Under the pieces are notes generated by a model. The model saw nothing but the letters and a program-made list of their open reading frames with translations. It was not told the DNA's origin and made no database searches. 42,275 nucleotides of DNA from an uncultured Flavobacteriaceae bacterium. Lineage in GTDB: Bacteria > Bacteroidota > Bacteroidia > Flavobacteriales > Flavobacteriaceae. Position 1 is the stretch's first letter. Each line of letters begins with the position of its first letter. Made by a program: the position numbers and the translations under genes. Below are positions 5,949-12,280 of this stretch, piece by piece. The stretch is from the NCBI GenBank assembly GCA_947487895.1, contig CANKYF010000020.1, positions 1-42,275 of the forward strand, in the 5' to 3' direction.

Positions 5949-6611
5949 ATGATTTTGAAGAAAAAAGTAAAAAAACCTTGGCCTACAAAAGATGCCATGA
6001 CCCAAATTTATGAGCAACACTTTTGGGGCGGCACTGACTTCGATTTTTATTCAGGTGAAGGGTCTCACAAACTAGACATTATAAATCCTTATCTAGAAGC
6101 AGTTGTTTCCTTTTTACATGCTTTTGAATCTCCTTTAACAGTTTGCGATTTAGGTTGTGGCGATTTTAATATTGGCAAGCACTTAGTAACATATACCAAA
6201 AAATATATAGCAATAGATATTGTGGAATCTCTTATTGAGCGTAACAAACTTCTTTTTAAAGCCGATAACTTAGAATTTTATTGTTTAGATATTGCTAAAG
6301 ACAGCCTTCCTGAAGCCGATTGCATCGTTATTAGACAAGTATTACAACACCTATCAAACACTGAAATACGGAGCATCACCCAAAAATTAAAAGCTTACAA
6401 ATACATTATTCTTACCGAACATTTACCCAATGGTGATTTTACACCTAATAAAGATATTATTTCTGGGCAAGGTATTAGGCTCAAACAGAATAGTGGGGTT
6501 CATTTATTAGAGTCTCCTTTTAACTTAAAAGTTGAAAGTGCTAATATTTTAAATGAGTTTGTTTTAGATAGTGGTCAAGGAAAGATTGTTACCACGCTCT
6601 ACAAGGTTTAA
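5949..6611 (+). CDS. Class I SAM-dependent methyltransferase
   Basis: A 220-residue protein with a Rossmann-type methyltransferase fold. Motif I is VCDLGCGDFNIGKHL (about residues 65-79) and binds SAM. It is followed by the acidic residue at the end of strand 2 (IAIDIVE) and by LDIAKDSLPEADCIVIRQVL, the motif II/post-II region that often covers the active site. The N-terminus is basic (MILKKKVKKPWPTKD) with no signal peptide, so it is cytoplasmic. The substrate cannot be predicted. It stands alone, with an AT-rich 213-bp upstream region shared with the divergent beta-helix gene. Confidence 0.85.
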   Translation: MILKKKVKKPWPTKDAMTQIYEQHFWGGTDFDFYSGEGSHKLDIINPYLEAVVSFLHAFESPLTVCDLGCGDFNIGKHLVTYTKKYIAIDIVESLIERNKLLFKADNLEFYCLDIAKDSLPEADCIVIRQVLQHLSNTEIRSITQKLKAYKYIILTEHLPNGDFTPNKDIISGQGIRLKQNSGVHLLESPFNLKVESANILNEFVLDSGQGKIVTTLYKV

Positions 6612-6811
6612 CTAACAAATCTCGAGTAAGAAAATTCATGTTAGTTTGAGTGGTTTTTGGAAAAAAATCGTATCGAAAACAAAATGAATTTCCGTTAAAT
6701 AAGACTTCTCAGCGCAAAAATTTTGCAAAACTTCACTCGACAGTGACATCATGAACTCTTAAGCAAGATTAACGTTAATAAAAAACGTTTGAGATAATTA
6801 TATATTGAAAA

Positions 6812-6842
6812 GTATAAAGAGCATTAAAAATGCCCTTTATAC
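6812..6842 (-). terminator. Terminator of the lectin-like gene
   Basis: A 14-bp stem (6812-6825 with 6829-6842) around a 3-nt loop starts 16 bp past the lectin-like stop codon. The only imperfect position is a G-U pair on the minus-strand RNA but an A-C mismatch on the plus strand, so the hairpin is best suited to the minus strand. A short T-run (TTTTC) follows. The rest of the gap 6612-6811 holds no gene; it has a GCAAAAATTTTGC-type palindrome near 6718. Confidence 0.7.
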
Positions 6843-6857
6843 AGTGTTTTGAGATTC

Positions 6858-7283
6858 TTAATGAGCTATTGTAGTACTCCTTAAAATCATGTCATTAAAA
6901 TCATTATCAACCCAGTCTTCCGACAGAGCAGTAATTACTTCTATTCCGTGATCGTTAAATGCTATATTAGGAAACACTTTATTTCCTGCATTTGGAGTAA
7001 AAGAACCATTAGGATCATAAAAAAACTCTGCACTTAATGTTAATGGGAGTTTTGCATTTTCATAGGTTAAAACTGTTCCTCCTTCTGGAACTAATTTAGC
7101 TGGAGCATTATTCTCTCCTTTTCCTTCAAAAGTTCCTGAAGCTACGGTTTTACCATCTGCATCTGTTATTGAAACACTTACTTTTTGAGTAAATCCTGCA
7201 TTAGTAATACCTGAGATTGTTCCTGATGCAACAGTATTTGTTGCTCCAATTGGGTTAATGGTTTGTGAAATTGGGTTGGACAT
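6858..7283 (-). CDS. LecB (PA-IIL)-like calcium-dependent lectin
   Basis: A 141-residue protein without signal peptide whose second half follows the fold order of Pseudomonas LecB. The C-terminal loop EDWVDNDFND (122-131) matches the LecB calcium loop EDGTDNDYND. All five acidic/Asn ligands (E122, D126, D128, N130, D131) are at the LecB positions plus 27, and exactly ten residues follow to the C-terminus, as in LecB, where the terminal carboxylate of one subunit caps the neighbour's site. N28 in SGITNAGFTQKV corresponds to LecB Asn21, and GKGENNAPAKLV parallels the GQSTNNAVIG segment. The last residue is His instead of Gly, and the sugar-selectivity triplet after the Asn is AGF. There is also a longer loop at about 88-112 and an N-terminal extension of about 7 residues. 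Binding of fucose or mannose is inferred from the family. The gene is single, with its own terminator, divergent from the Crp-type regulator. Confidence 0.72.
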   Translation of the reverse strand: MSNPISQTINPIGATNTVASGTISGITNAGFTQKVSVSITDADGKTVASGTFEGKGENNAPAKLVPEGGTVLTYENAKLPLTLSAEFFYDPNGSFTPNAGNKVFPNIAFNDHGIEVITALSEDWVDNDFNDMILRSTTIAH

Positions 7284-7316
7284 GTTTTTTTTATTAAAAA
7301 ATTATATTCCTACTCT

Positions 7317-7346
7317 CTTTAAGGCTTTTCGGATTCCGCCTTTAAA
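7317..7346 (-). promoter_or_regulatory. Nested hairpin in the leader of the lectin-like gene
   Basis: About 35-65 nt upstream of the lectin-like ATG the minus strand reads TTTAAAGGCGGAATCCGAAA then AGCCTTAAAG. The arms AAAGGC and GCCTT can pair around an inner CGGAATCCG palindrome. It is a GC-rich island in an AT-rich leader. It could be an mRNA structure or an operator; no known riboswitch was recognised. The rest of the 278-bp gap to the regulator shows no further feature. Confidence 0.4.
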
Positions 7347-7561
7347 TCAGAAAGAAATAATGTTAAGGATGTTCAATCTGATATTTTGTAATTACAATTT
7401 AAAGTTGAGAAATTGACGTATTGATTTTTTAAAAAAAGGTATAAGACACTGATATTTAAGTATGAAACCTAGAATTTTTGGCATAAGAGAAAAGAGCCTA
7501 ACAAAATATAGAAAGGAATGGCAAAATTTCTAACTTAGCTTTTTTTCGAAATTACATGTAA

Positions 7562-8125
7562 ATGACACACCCTCTTCGTAAGCATATAGAAGAAATCATC
7601 CATCTTACTGATGAGGAATTTGAATTTATTCTCAGTCATTTTGAACAAATTAAAAAACGTAAACACCAATACTTAGTACAAGAAGGCGATATTGTAAAAA
7701 AAGAATTTTGGATCATAAAAGGCTGCCTAAAAAGCTCATTTATTGACAATGAAGGAAAAGAACATATTCTTCAATTTGGAATGGAAAATTGGTGGATTAC
7801 AGATTACGAATCCTTTGTAAATCAAACAGCATCTAAAATTTCTATTGATTGTATTGAGGATAGCGAACTCTTATATATTACTGCCGAAAATAGAGATGCT
7901 TTAACAGCCAAAATGCATAAAATGGAACGTTTTTGGGCTAAAAAAAGTAAATATGGTAGAATTGCGCTTCAAAACAGAGTGTTATCTCTTTTGCAAAATT
8001 CAGCTAAAGAACGTTATGATGTACTACTCAATCAATATCCTCAACTTTTTCAGCGTGTTCCAAAAAAAATGATTGCTGCCTATCTAGGCGTTTCTAGAGA
8101 AACTCTAAGTAGATTAAACTCTTAA
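7562..8125 (+). CDS. Crp/Fnr-family transcriptional regulator
   Basis: A 187-residue regulator: an N-terminal cyclic-nucleotide-binding-like beta-roll (about 15-110), a dimerisation helix (about 110-140) and a C-terminal winged helix-turn-helix. There is no cluster of Cys residues for an Fe-S sensor, and the cAMP-phosphate-binding RER/S motif of true CRP is not apparent, so the signal is unknown. The recognition helix reads SRETLSRL with R179, E180 and R184 at the spacing of the three residues by which E. coli CRP reads TGTGA. The protein ends three residues later. A TGTGA-N6-TCACT site and a larger GTGACA palindrome lie just downstream, ahead of the next operon. Confidence 0.88.
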   Translation: MTHPLRKHIEEIIHLTDEEFEFILSHFEQIKKRKHQYLVQEGDIVKKEFWIIKGCLKSSFIDNEGKEHILQFGMENWWITDYESFVNQTASKISIDCIEDSELLYITAENRDALTAKMHKMERFWAKKSKYGRIALQNRVLSLLQNSAKERYDVLLNQYPQLFQRVPKKMIAAYLGVSRETLSRLNS

Positions 8126-8150
8126 TCTCCCACATTAATTACTCTTAAAA

Positions 8151-8166
8151 TGTGATCTACATCACT
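8151..8166. promoter_or_regulatory. CRP-like operator TGTGA-N6-TCACT
   Basis: TGTGATCTACATCACT matches the CRP half-site arrangement TGTGA-N6-TCACA at 9 of 10 defined positions. It begins 25 bp past the stop of the Crp-type regulator and about 66 bp before the proposed transcription start of the 8252-9578 operon, an activator-like distance. It could serve the operon, or autoregulate only if the mRNA extends through it. Confidence 0.5.
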
Positions 8167-8172
8167 TTAAAA

Positions 8173-8197
8173 CTGTGACAAACCTCCTGTGTCACAG
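8173..8197. promoter_or_regulatory. Perfect 8-bp inverted repeat overlapping the -33 region
   Basis: CTGTGACA and TGTCACAG are perfect inverted arms separated by 9 nt; with one mismatch the arms extend to 11 bp (8170-8200). It contains TGTGA and TCACA but at a wider spacing than a single CRP site. Its centre lies near -40 relative to the start predicted from the CAACTTTG box (8211-8218). It might instead form a hairpin, but no T-run follows, so an operator is favoured. Confidence 0.5.
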
Positions 8198-8218
8198 CTT
8201 AAAATCGCTTCAACTTTG
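8188..8218 (+). promoter_or_regulatory. Weak Bacteroidetes-type promoter of the tautomerase-SDR operon
   Basis: CAACTTTG (8211-8218) differs from TAnnTTTG at one defined position, and TGTG (8188-8191), 19 nt upstream, differs from TTTG at one. A promoter with two off-consensus boxes overlapping a palindrome suggests activator dependence. The predicted leader is about 25-30 nt. Confidence 0.4.
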
Positions 8219-8251
8219 CAAGGAAATTATTTTTAATTAAAAGAAAATATT

Positions 8252-8452
8252 ATGCCTTACATTAATTTAAAAGTTACTGATGAACAGGTAACTAAAGAAC
8301 AAAAACAGAAACTAGTTCAAGGAATGACACAACTTCTTGCAGACATTCTAAACAAAGATCCTAAAACCACTCACATAGTTATCGATGAAGTACCAATTGA
8401 TAACTGGGGTTACAACAGTAAACTATATTCATCAACTTTAAAAATCCATTAA
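8252..8452 (+). CDS. 4-oxalocrotonate tautomerase-family protein
   Basis: A 66-residue protein of the small tautomerase family. The residue after Met is Pro (MPYINLKVTDEQVT), the catalytic base of this family once Met is removed. The helix EQKQKLVQGMTQLL and the strand THIVIDEVPIDNWGYN fit the usual beta-alpha-beta unit of about 62 residues. Family members convert enols and ketones or act on small unsaturated acids; the substrate here is unknown. It is the first gene of an operon: the SDR starts one base after its stop. Confidence 0.85.
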   Translation: MPYINLKVTDEQVTKEQKQKLVQGMTQLLADILNKDPKTTHIVIDEVPIDNWGYNSKLYSSTLKIH

Positions 8453-8453
8453 A

Positions 8454-9197
8454 ATGAAAAACAAAACAGTAATAGTTACGGGAGCCTCATCTGGTATAGG
8501 AAAAGCCATTGCAAAGTATTTTATAGATAGAGAAAGCAATGTGGTCATGACTGCTTCTTCAAAAGAAAATCTTGAAATTACATTTAACGAATTTGGCGCA
8601 CCAAAAAATGCAATTTGTTTAGTTGGTGACATTTCGAAAAAAGAAACGTCACAAAGATTAAGTGAATTAGCTTTAGATACATTTGGTACTATTGATGTTT
8701 TAATTAACAACGCGGGTGTGTTTTCGCCAAAACCGTTCTTAGAAGTTGAAGACAAAGACTTAGATCTATATTGGGATGTAAACCTAAAAGGTACATTCTA
8801 TGCATCTCAGGCAGTTATTCCGCAAATGCTTAAACAAAAAAGCGGCTCTATTATAAATATAGGTACTGTATTGGTAGATCATGCTATTGATGGGTTTCCA
8901 GCAACAGCTCCCTTAACAAGTAAAGGAGCTATACATGCTTTAACAAGGCAATTGGCTGCAGAATTTGGCAAAAGCAATATTAAAGTGAATACCATAGCAC
9001 CAGGAATTATTAGAAGCCCGTTACAAGGAAAAATGGGTGTTGAGGATGCCGATAGTTTAGCAGGTTTACATCTTTTAAACAGAATTGGCGAAGCTCATGA
9101 AATAGCTGAAGCTGCTTATTATTTAGCAAATTCAGATTTTATAACTGGGGAAACTATTAACGTAGCGGGTGGTCATACCATTGGTCATGCTATTTAA
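8454..9197 (+). CDS. SDR-family oxidoreductase with altered active site
   Basis: A 247-residue short-chain dehydrogenase/reductase fold. The cofactor motif TGASSGIG (residues 9-16), the NNAG motif (85-88) and the C-terminal dimer region ITGETINVAGG are intact. The catalytic YxxxK is not: where Tyr is expected the sequence reads P153-L-T-S-K157, and the preceding Ser position is Thr (INIGT, T138). The protein may use another residue, bind substrate without redox chemistry, or belong to an SDR subgroup with this changed signature. It is co-transcribed with the tautomerase (1-nt gap) and the NTF2-like gene (9-nt gap). Confidence 0.85.
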   Translation: MKNKTVIVTGASSGIGKAIAKYFIDRESNVVMTASSKENLEITFNEFGAPKNAICLVGDISKKETSQRLSELALDTFGTIDVLINNAGVFSPKPFLEVEDKDLDLYWDVNLKGTFYASQAVIPQMLKQKSGSIINIGTVLVDHAIDGFPATAPLTSKGAIHALTRQLAAEFGKSNIKVNTIAPGIIRSPLQGKMGVEDADSLAGLHLLNRIGEAHEIAEAAYYLANSDFITGETINVAGGHTIGHAI

Positions 9198-9206
9198 AAT
9201 TAAAAA

Positions 9207-9578
9207 ATGATGTATCAAGAAACTATAAATAACATAGAAACCCTCATCTCTAATTACTTTAATGGTATATTCTATGGAGATGTTGATAAACTAAACACTT
9301 GTTTTCACTCTAGCATTACGCTTTTTGGAGATATAAACGGTGCAGATTACTTGAAGAGTAAAACAGATTATTTAGACGGTATTAAGAACAGGCAAAGCCC
9401 TCATGATTTGGGTGAAGCTTTTAAAATGAAAATTATAGGAATAGATGTTATGGGTAAGATAGCCATGGCAAAACTTCATGTACCTATGTTAGGTTACAAT
9501 TACTACGATTATTTATCTCTAAATAAAATTGATGATAACTGGGTGATTGTTGGAAAGATATTTACACATGTTGAATAA
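9207..9578 (+). CDS. NTF2-like (SnoaL/lumazine-binding-like) protein
   Basis: A 123-residue single-domain protein of the cone-shaped NTF2-like fold: an N-terminal helix pair (ETINNIETLISNYFNGIFYG), then FHSSITLFGDINGADY and a curved sheet (MAKLHVPMLGYNYYDYLSL, NWVIVGKIFTHVE). It resembles the putative lumazine-binding/SnoaL-like group, which often accompanies oxidoreductases as an isomerase or binding partner. No signal peptide. Third gene of the operon; its ligand is unknown. ATG codons at 9207 and 9210 are both possible starts. Confidence 0.8.
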   Translation: MMYQETINNIETLISNYFNGIFYGDVDKLNTCFHSSITLFGDINGADYLKSKTDYLDGIKNRQSPHDLGEAFKMKIIGIDVMGKIAMAKLHVPMLGYNYYDYLSLNKIDDNWVIVGKIFTHVE

Positions 9579-9625
9579 ACAAACGTAATTCAAACATAAG
9601 CGGCGATCTTGCTTGTCGCTTTTGT

Positions 9626-10876: not shown

Positions 10877-12280
10877 ATGCTTACCAAAGCAAAAAAAACA
10901 ACGCAAGAATATATTAAACGTTTAAACTATGCACTAGACTTTATAGAAAAAAATCTTGATGCAGATTTATCTCTTGAAAAAATTTCACATAAAGCGCATT
11001 ACTCTCCTTACCATTTTCACAGGATATTTTCAACAATTATAGGTGAAAATTTAAACGAATATGTAACACGCAAACGCATAGAACGTATAGCATCCATTTT
11101 GCTTTTGGGCACTAAAGATTCTATAAAAAATCTATCTTACAAATATGGCTTTAATAGTGAAAGTTCGTTCTCACGAGCTTTTAAAAAACACTACGGAATT
11201 GCCCCCTCTAAATTTAAATCTGAAGGACAAAACAAACTTAGCAAGATTGGTATAGAACCTTTTAAATCTGAAAAATACATTTGTGACATTAACAACATTA
11301 AAAAATGGGTTGAAATGAATGCACAAATTACTTTGAGAACAATAAAAGATATAAAACTTGCTAGTATTATGCATATAGCTGAATTCGAGAAAATGGGCAG
11401 TATGTATCAAAAATTAATTGAATGGGGGCATAAAAATGATGTTTTATCTACTTCAGATTTTCAAGCCATAACTATTTACCATGACAACCCTAATGTAACA
11501 CAAATCTTAAGAGTAAGATATAGTGCTTGCGTAACAGTTAATAAAAATATTAAGGCCGAAGGTGAAATTAGGCCTTATATTTTAAAAGGAGGTAACTATG
11601 CTGTTGGTCATTTTGAAATTAATTCTAAAGACTTTCCAAAAGCATGGAAAAGTATGTTAATCTGGGTTATTGAAAATGGTTACCAATTTAGAGATGCCGA
11701 TTATTTTGAAGAATATCTTAATGATTATAAAACACACCCTGAACAAAAACACATAATAAACATTTACATTCCTGTTGTACAAGTTAGTACTAAAAAAAAC
11801 AAAGCAAAGATTTCAAACTGTGAAAGTACAACAGAACAGAATCAAACCGTATTTGATTATTTTCAATTAATAAACTTTATGAAAGACATCAAGTCTTTCT
11901 TTGATAAAAAATATGGTTTAGATTTTAAATTTGGAAGTATTTATAAAGGAAGTAAAGATTTCTCCTATTTTTCATTGACTACAGAAGCATTAAAAAGACA
12001 AAAATTAAAATTTGTTCTTATTTTTAATCATAAAATACTGAACTTTAGAATTTGTTTATCTGGTCAAAATAAAAGTATTAGAAAAAAATATTGGAATCTA
12101 TTTAAGGGTAGCGATTGGAATACATACCGTTTGGCAGAATCGATAGATAATAGTTTATCTATTATTGATTATCTAATAGTAGAAAAGCCAAATTTCAATA
12201 ATATGGAGACATTAATAAATCAAATTGAAACAGAATCTTTTAAATTTATAAATGAAATTAGAAGTATCCTTGAACAATAG
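10877..12280 (+). CDS. AraC-family regulator with GyrI-like domain and a third, unrecognised domain
   Basis: A 467-residue protein. Residues about 12-112 form an AraC double helix-turn-helix (LSLEKISHKAHYSPYHFHRI, then LSYKYGFNSESSFSRAFKKH and YGIAPSKF). Residues about 145-300 form a GyrI-like effector-binding domain (RTIKDIKLASIMHIAEFEKM; ILKGGNYAVGHFEI; HIINIYIPV), which usually binds a drug-like small molecule. AraC-GyrI proteins normally end near residue 290-300; this one continues for about 165 residues (VFDYFQLINFMKDIKSFF ... SDWNTYRLAESIDNSLSIID) in a domain I do not recognise. No signal peptide. It precedes the queuosine-precursor transporter by 8 nt, so the two are probably co-transcribed. 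Confidence 0.85.
   Translation: MLTKAKKTTQEYIKRLNYALDFIEKNLDADLSLEKISHKAHYSPYHFHRIFSTIIGENLNEYVTRKRIERIASILLLGTKDSIKNLSYKYGFNSESSFSRAFKKHYGIAPSKFKSEGQNKLSKIGIEPFKSEKYICDINNIKKWVEMNAQITLRTIKDIKLASIMHIAEFEKMGSMYQKLIEWGHKNDVLSTSDFQAITIYHDNPNVTQILRVRYSACVTVNKNIKAEGEIRPYILKGGNYAVGHFEINSKDFPKAWKSMLIWVIENGYQFRDADYFEEYLNDYKTHPEQKHIINIYIPVVQVSTKKNKAKISNCESTTEQNQTVFDYFQLINFMKDIKSFFDKKYGLDFKFGSIYKGSKDFSYFSLTTEALKRQKLKFVLIFNHKILNFRICLSGQNKSIRKKYWNLFKGSDWNTYRLAESIDNSLSIIDYLIVEKPNFNNMETLINQIETESFKFINEIRSILEQ

Follow-up and report, generated by a model that had tools for sequence, protein, structure and literature searches.

A predicted LecB-type lectin behind a DUF805b RNA leader in an uncultured Flavobacteriaceae bacterium

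Overview

The window analysed here is the whole of a 42,275-nucleotide stretch from an uncultured Flavobacteriaceae bacterium (GCA_947487895.1, contig CANKYF010000020.1, positions 1 to 42,275). It carries a gene for a 141-aa protein that is very likely a lectin of the PA-IIL (LecB) superfamily made without a signal peptide, in which a two-calcium loop would hold the sugar, the carboxylate of the terminal His141 would be swapped into a neighbouring subunit, an alanine would favour mannose, and a DUF805b RNA would control production of a protein that acts outside the cell (Table 1). Membership of the superfamily is predicted from the fold and the relatives; the protein is a divergent LecB-type lectin and, by Pfam's own cut-off, is not a member of PF07472. 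The LecB fold, as predicted, is thereby extended to a branch of the Bacteroidota that is missed by Pfam's model, and through the leader, production of the lectin is tied to a cis-regulatory RNA that has received little study. The lectin is less novel than the RNA pseudoknot and the occurrence of the latter with exported products. Genes are named by reading, except for the methyltransferase, Crp-like, dehydrogenase, lumazine-binding-like and HPPK/dNK genes, which were named by Pfam.

Table 1. Positions of the lectin gene, its predicted sites and the neighbouring elements within the window.
Feature	Positions	Strand	Remarks
Lectin, Crp-like regulator, short-chain dehydrogenase and lumazine-binding-like (NTF2-like) genes	6612..9625	.	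missing in five congener loci
Lectin-like CDS	6858..7283	(-)	141 aa from ATG; Cys-free; signal peptide not seen by eye
Predicted calcium loop E122-D131 (EDWVDNDFND)	6891..6920	(-)	residue conservation and alignment to PA-IIL loop
N28-A29-G30-F31, counterpart of LecB Asn21 and specificity triplet 22-24	7191..7202	(-)	alignment to PA-IIL
C-terminal His141, carboxylate predicted for neighbour's calcium site	6861..6863	(-)	spacing to D131; contact inferred
Terminator-like hairpin just 3' of the lectin stop codon	6812..6842	(-)	14 pairs, 4 G-C, T tail
DUF805b RNA (RF02914), 5' leader of the lectin gene	7307..7342	(-)	52.1 bits, gathering 35.6; E 2.9e-14
Proposed pseudoknot in DUF805b, UCC 7333-7331 with GGA 7310-7308	7308..7333	(-)	outer-pair covariation; U-A type here

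Family membership and relatives

The first-pass annotation had named a match to PF07472 as one check on a LecB-like lectin, and here that check failed: nothing was reported for the 141-aa protein up to the limit of E 10 (few matches above an E of about 0.1 get past the filters; the Pfam gathering cut-off is 21 bits). PF07472 was likewise found neither in its own genome nor in 14 control genomes, and was not matched by the relatives from Marinoscillum (L012) or Flammeovirga (L013). NCBIfam and PHROGs gave no match to the protein, and its sole Pfam match, RodZ_C, fell below the cut-off (16.3 vs 23.9 bits). Searches of PDB sequences with the protein alone, or with the three-member clade that it forms with L012 and L013, returned no lectin; the best match of the clade was a designed protein (E 0.0024).

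PF07472-positive relatives of the protein are reached in two steps. The family scores above its cut-off on L009 (3.2e-10), L010 (7.3e-7) and L016 (1.4e-10) and below it on L014 (E 0.092), and none was reported on L002 and L003; the protein of L010 is the same as that of L015 and was for this reason left out of one alignment. The earlier view of the family as mainly proteobacterial needs widening, as L009 and L010 belong to the same phylum as the window and thrombocorticin is a solved member from a sponge (PMC9700728). A nine-row profile matches PA-IIL in the PDB with an E of 6.1e-8 over positions 6-128 of 131. With a six-row profile from which PF07472 members are absent, chains of the PA-IIL family come up no better than E 0.1-1.4, beneath unrelated matches and in between them. 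With hhalign, the protein's own clade aligns to the PF07472-positive clade at 95.5% (E 1.4e-8, 101 columns), against 1.2% for secreted proteins and 0.9% for methyltransferases used as controls.

Searches for further relatives were made at several depths. Three of the 299 genomes of the same bacterial family match (own genome counted); a three-row profile gave six of 397 genomes including its own, with two set aside and L006 partial; the phylum-wide search gave 4/395 and the class-wide search with a six-row profile 2/395, each including the own genome and each with one set aside. The candidates rejected as relatives were L007 (a weak match inside a 347-residue secreted frame), L008 (a weak match in an 865-residue frame), L011 (a stop within the match) and L017 (34 positions in a 1165-residue frame, from the match table row). 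A scan of one genome per species (84,980 species) for the loop pattern turned up 75 stretches that carry it; five relatives were confirmed, the closest being the full-length proteins of Marinoscillum pacificum (72%, L012) and Flammeovirga aprica (71%, L013), both Cytophagales; the remaining three are MAGs at 26-32%. No lectin relatives were found in viral contigs, plasmids or phages.

Some relatives adjoin domains or proteins without a Pfam match: in L006 (949-1791, (-)) the relative is fused to a second domain of about 130 aa, in L014 (2481-3252) an overlapping gene after it encodes a domain of about 130 aa, and in L002 (815-1369) a 184-aa protein lies just upstream.

Predicted fold

An AF2 model made from six sequences (pLDDT 85.0, pTM 0.83) was compared with the PDB by Foldseek, where ranks 1-20 were all of the PA-IIL family (best E 3.1e-6) at moderate TM-scores over the query of 0.45-0.57, and rank 21 had a TM of 0.25. 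As the six-sequence alignment held PF07472 members, a control model was made from the three-member clade alone, with no PF07472-positive sequence in the alignment. The best of its five models reached a pLDDT of 79.9 and a pTM of 0.78 (the other four, pLDDT 53-65), and its ranks 1-16 were again all of the PA-IIL family, including all 15 matches with E<=0.001, at TM-scores over the query of 0.39-0.58, which are likewise moderate. It is in these predicted models (ranks 1-20; control 1-16) that the PA-IIL-type beta-sandwich is seen, and their PDB ranks, together with the profile alignment described below, lend predictive support to the LecB-like fold and two-calcium loop first proposed. Confidence in the six-sequence model is low at residues 101-110 and 121-130, the calcium loop included, and residues 28-32 form a loop between two strands in the control model but not in the six-sequence model. 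In a fold search of BFVD there was one match at E<=0.001, a phage protein with a TM of 0.37.

Genomic location

The core-region location given in the first-pass annotation was not borne out. Six congeners were used, with five loci extended (left out: G374, L023), and all five lack the lectin stretch between the methyltransferase and HPPK/dNK (folK) genes. These loci keep the TrmH, methyltransferase, folK, vut, AsmA, DUF2797 and GH3 genes in every case and mutS in four of five; at E 1e-10 they hold no match to the lectin, Crp-like, dehydrogenase or lumazine-binding-like genes, nor to an AraC-type gene at 10877-12280. The slot between methyltransferase and folK (L025-L029) is without a gene in two congener loci and holds one cargo gene in each of the other three, namely a PL28 ulvan lyase (2.8e-125), an acyl-CoA dehydrogenase-like gene and a cupin-like gene. 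Among the seven genomes of the genus, the lectin is matched in its own alone. Because its distribution in the genus is patchy and the slot is variable, the lectin gene with its leader looks mobile, not core; the pair also recurs in distant Bacteroidota without common neighbours.

The divergent neighbour of the lectin gene is the Crp-like regulator. In L012 (654-3318) and L013 (142-2985), a divergent block of regulator, kinase, membrane protein and CPxxC-end protein stands in the same order, with identities between the two of 30% for the regulator and 33% for the kinase, those of the other two not being significant. No such block lies beside the lectin gene at 6858-7283, and it was rejected as a shared lectin context, being absent here and poorly conserved. 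Adjoining the Flammeovirga lectin (L013 4546-6582) is a phosphatidylserine decarboxylase (Pfam) whose C-terminal extension looks repetitive.

The DUF805b leader

The DUF805b element of the lectin gene stands 23 nt before the ATG, and the Rfam match covers all 35 positions. The leader of the Flammeovirga lectin scores 46.5 bits and that of Marinoscillum 33.3 bits, under the cut-off of 35.6, with three of four stem pairs kept; at gathering, none was found in seven loci of other lectin relatives, in the five congener loci or in L014. There are two copies in the own genome, and the gene downstream of the second encodes a 147-aa protein whose start resembles a signal peptide; the element is over the cut-off in 86/199 genomes of the bacterial family. 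Genome G195 has up to 27 matches at E<=0.001. DUF805b was reportedly first described in a 2017 survey of candidate structured RNAs; our literature search found no paper naming it, and one, on machine learning, that names RF02914.

The copies analysed were 91 (31 loci and 60 of the next 65 among the matches listed by score), with L012 and L013 added. A strict pattern was fitted by 89 of the 93 (L067, L080, L086 and L107 were dropped), of which 78 are distinct. The base before the loop CC and the base after GAGUAGG form a Watson-Crick pair in 69/78 distinct elements (G-C 34, A-U 19, U-A 14, C-G 2), where 10,000 shuffles gave a mean of 25.7 and a maximum of 41; over all 89 copies the true partner pairs in 80 and shifted partners in at most 23. 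The pattern itself demanded CC and GG, so that these two pairs are not independent evidence, and the copies of L012 and L013 are without the outer pair. The simplest reading of the covariation is an H-type pseudoknot of NCC with GGN'. The cmscan structure line shows no pseudoknot (the line may omit pseudoknots by design), and thermodynamic folding of the lectin leader is unremarkable (z -0.56).

DUF805b keeps a near-constant place in front of genes. An ATG-started ORF of at least 40 aa begins 16-32 nt after the element in 82 of 87 family copies (random points in 30 of these loci: 550/12,000), and three of the 87 have no such ORF within 80 nt. While internal spacing differs between copies of the element, its distance from the start codon stays the same, so that an RNA acting on translation would be a better fit than a promoter. 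TAnnTTTG, a Bacteroidota promoter box, has no fixed position before the 87 elements; for TTTG there is a slight peak 30-31 nt ahead of the hairpin (18/87). The pseudoknot in the 5' leader probably controls translation of the lectin, and a covarying pseudoknot at a near-constant distance from the start codon makes action on translation directly testable.

By a crude rule, 49/84 of the downstream proteins have a signal-peptide-like start, compared with 18/67 ORFs taken from the congener loci (Fisher p 1.4e-4), in two sets that are not independent since homologous genes recur in both. About 13 further products are, by reading, short peptides with a double-glycine leader. Ten of the downstream products were sent to NCBIfam, giving three bacteriocin- or RiPP-type leaders, all below cut-off, and against Pfam ten gave two DUF6520 above cut-off. 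As DUF805b leaders also stand before many genes whose products are exported, the most likely place of action for the lectin is outside the cell. In keeping with the first-pass annotation, no signal peptide was seen in it by eye, and this absence, with the Crp-like regulator as divergent neighbour, favours a lectin that stays inside the cell or is functionally tied to its Crp-like, dehydrogenase and lumazine-binding-like neighbours rather than to export. We consider this rather unlikely: L012 and L013 have other neighbours, yet the DUF805b leader is common to all three, and a terminator-like hairpin, the only one in 6600-7600 (shuffles: mean 0.3, sd 0.6), comes after the lectin gene.

Beyond an extracellular lectin, a wider picture can be offered tentatively, in which DUF805b is a pseudoknotted switch adjoining the ribosome-binding region and stands at the head of a programme, in Flavobacteriaceae, for products with a role outside the cell: secreted proteins, double-glycine leader peptides, proteins without a leader and a mobile LecB-type lectin. 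If true, the lectin would be one item of a jointly deployed arsenal, and the RNA's ligand or partner would be the regulatory signal to find.

The proposed sugar site

The profile alignment to solved PA-IIL, whose chain numbering runs one above the usual numbering, places N28 on Asn21, A29/G30/F31 on 22/23/24, and N58-N59-A60 on the NNA segment of LecB, and it matches the SED..D.D.ND loop to that of PA-IIL. The constant offset of 27, the Asn21 counterpart and the NNA segment therefore all stand as first described. N28, E122, D126, D128, N130 and D131 thereby match Asn21, Glu95, Asp99, Asp101, Asn103 and Asp104, which we take to be the calcium residues of PA-IIL. The loop reads E122-D123-W-V-D126-N-D128-F-N130-D131 and the chain ends ten residues after D131, the LecB distance, with H141 in place of the terminal Gly. 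Across nine aligned sequences (the 141-aa protein and eight relatives), E122, D123, D126, D128, N130 and D131 are identical in all, as is A29, and the N28 position is His in two. Agreement of this kind in the loop goes beyond chance. Within the three-member clade, the calcium loop and the TIAH end are the same letter for letter. The altered terminal residue and AGF triplet noted at the outset were also found, the His being common to the clade; other relatives are without Gly as well, with Ser in L014 and Leu in L002 and L003, and L009, L015 and L016 end later than LecB.

By analogy, the loop E122-D131 would bind two calcium ions that hold a sugar, and a second subunit would complete the site with the carboxylate of its terminal His141. 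In PA-IIL, the site consists of two calcium ions together with the C-terminal acid group (Gly114) of the adjoining subunit (PMC1903359), and in thrombocorticin Gly131 makes the same contact, where one added residue diminishes fucose binding (PMC9700728). A terminal His would be compatible with a LecB-type subunit contact because the contact uses the main-chain carboxylate; given the later ends of the PF07472-positive L009, L015 and L016, this contact may not be the same throughout the wider group. Alanine at the position of LecB Ser22 would give better mannose binding than in LecB. In PA-IIL, the S22A change brings affinity for methyl-fucoside down to 11% and that for mannoside up about 30-fold, with both sugars still bound and free fucose almost unaffected, and the mannose-preferring RS-IIL has Ala-Ala-Asn at the triplet (PMC1903359). 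Together with A29 in nine of nine sequences, these data suggest, from one position, better mannose binding than LecB. His at the subunit contact and an Ala-type triplet could thus give a lectin of different preference. No paper on a LecB-like lectin in Bacteroidetes was found in a literature search, and none, going by title, among the listed papers that mention both Flammeovirga and lectin.

The changed terminal residue and triplet, and the relative L006, which matches only profile positions 4-83 and in which no calcium loop was seen, would also suit a PA-IIL fold that no longer binds sugar and has a structural or storage role instead. Such a loss is improbable here, given that the calcium residues of the loop are invariant in the nine sequences and that the clade keeps loop and TIAH end unchanged. 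The loop motif by itself does not identify the family: two such loops occur in a congener protein (L028) that has DUF4842 and DUF4114 domains, and because the motif is common in this group it is the fold and the relatives that carry the LecB-type assignment. Convergence, in which the protein would be a DUF4114/DUF4842 (LruC)-type calcium-loop beta-sandwich with a merely LecB-like D.DFND loop, draws on those nearby loops, on a weak score of DUF4114 on a PF07472 member (E 0.14) and on the missing direct PF07472 match, and is very improbable, as Pfam reported neither DUF for the 141-aa protein, the L028 protein aligns to the clade at 2.9% over 12 columns as opposed to the long PF07472 alignment, the top Foldseek ranks hold PA-IIL-family chains alone for both models, and the fit to LecB extends to N28, to the NN segment and to how far the loop lies from the C-terminus.

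Comparison with known systems

The predicted LecB-type lectin resembles the PA-IIL/LecB family (PF07472; PA-IIL, RS-IIL, CV-IIL, BC2L) in its predicted fold, the identical spacing of the calcium loop, the Asn21 counterpart and the distance to the C-terminus. As with the 141-aa protein, in which none was seen, LecB is not known to carry a signal peptide. The 141-aa protein differs from PA-IIL in having no PF07472 match, 18-20% identity in structural alignments, 141 residues as opposed to 114, a C-terminal His in place of Gly and the triplet AGF in place of SSG. The leader of its gene scores above the gathering threshold of the DUF805b covariance model (RF02914; 52.1 vs 35.6 bits). The best Foldseek match of the six-sequence model is the sponge lectin thrombocorticin (PDB 7f9f/7f91/7f9j), a beta-sandwich homodimer in which the C-terminal carboxylate completes the calcium site (PMC9700728); a dimer of this kind is what we infer for the 141-aa protein. 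Thrombocorticin differs in its C-terminal Gly, its longer calcium loop and its Cys3-Cys111 disulfide, which is impossible in the Cys-free 141-aa protein.
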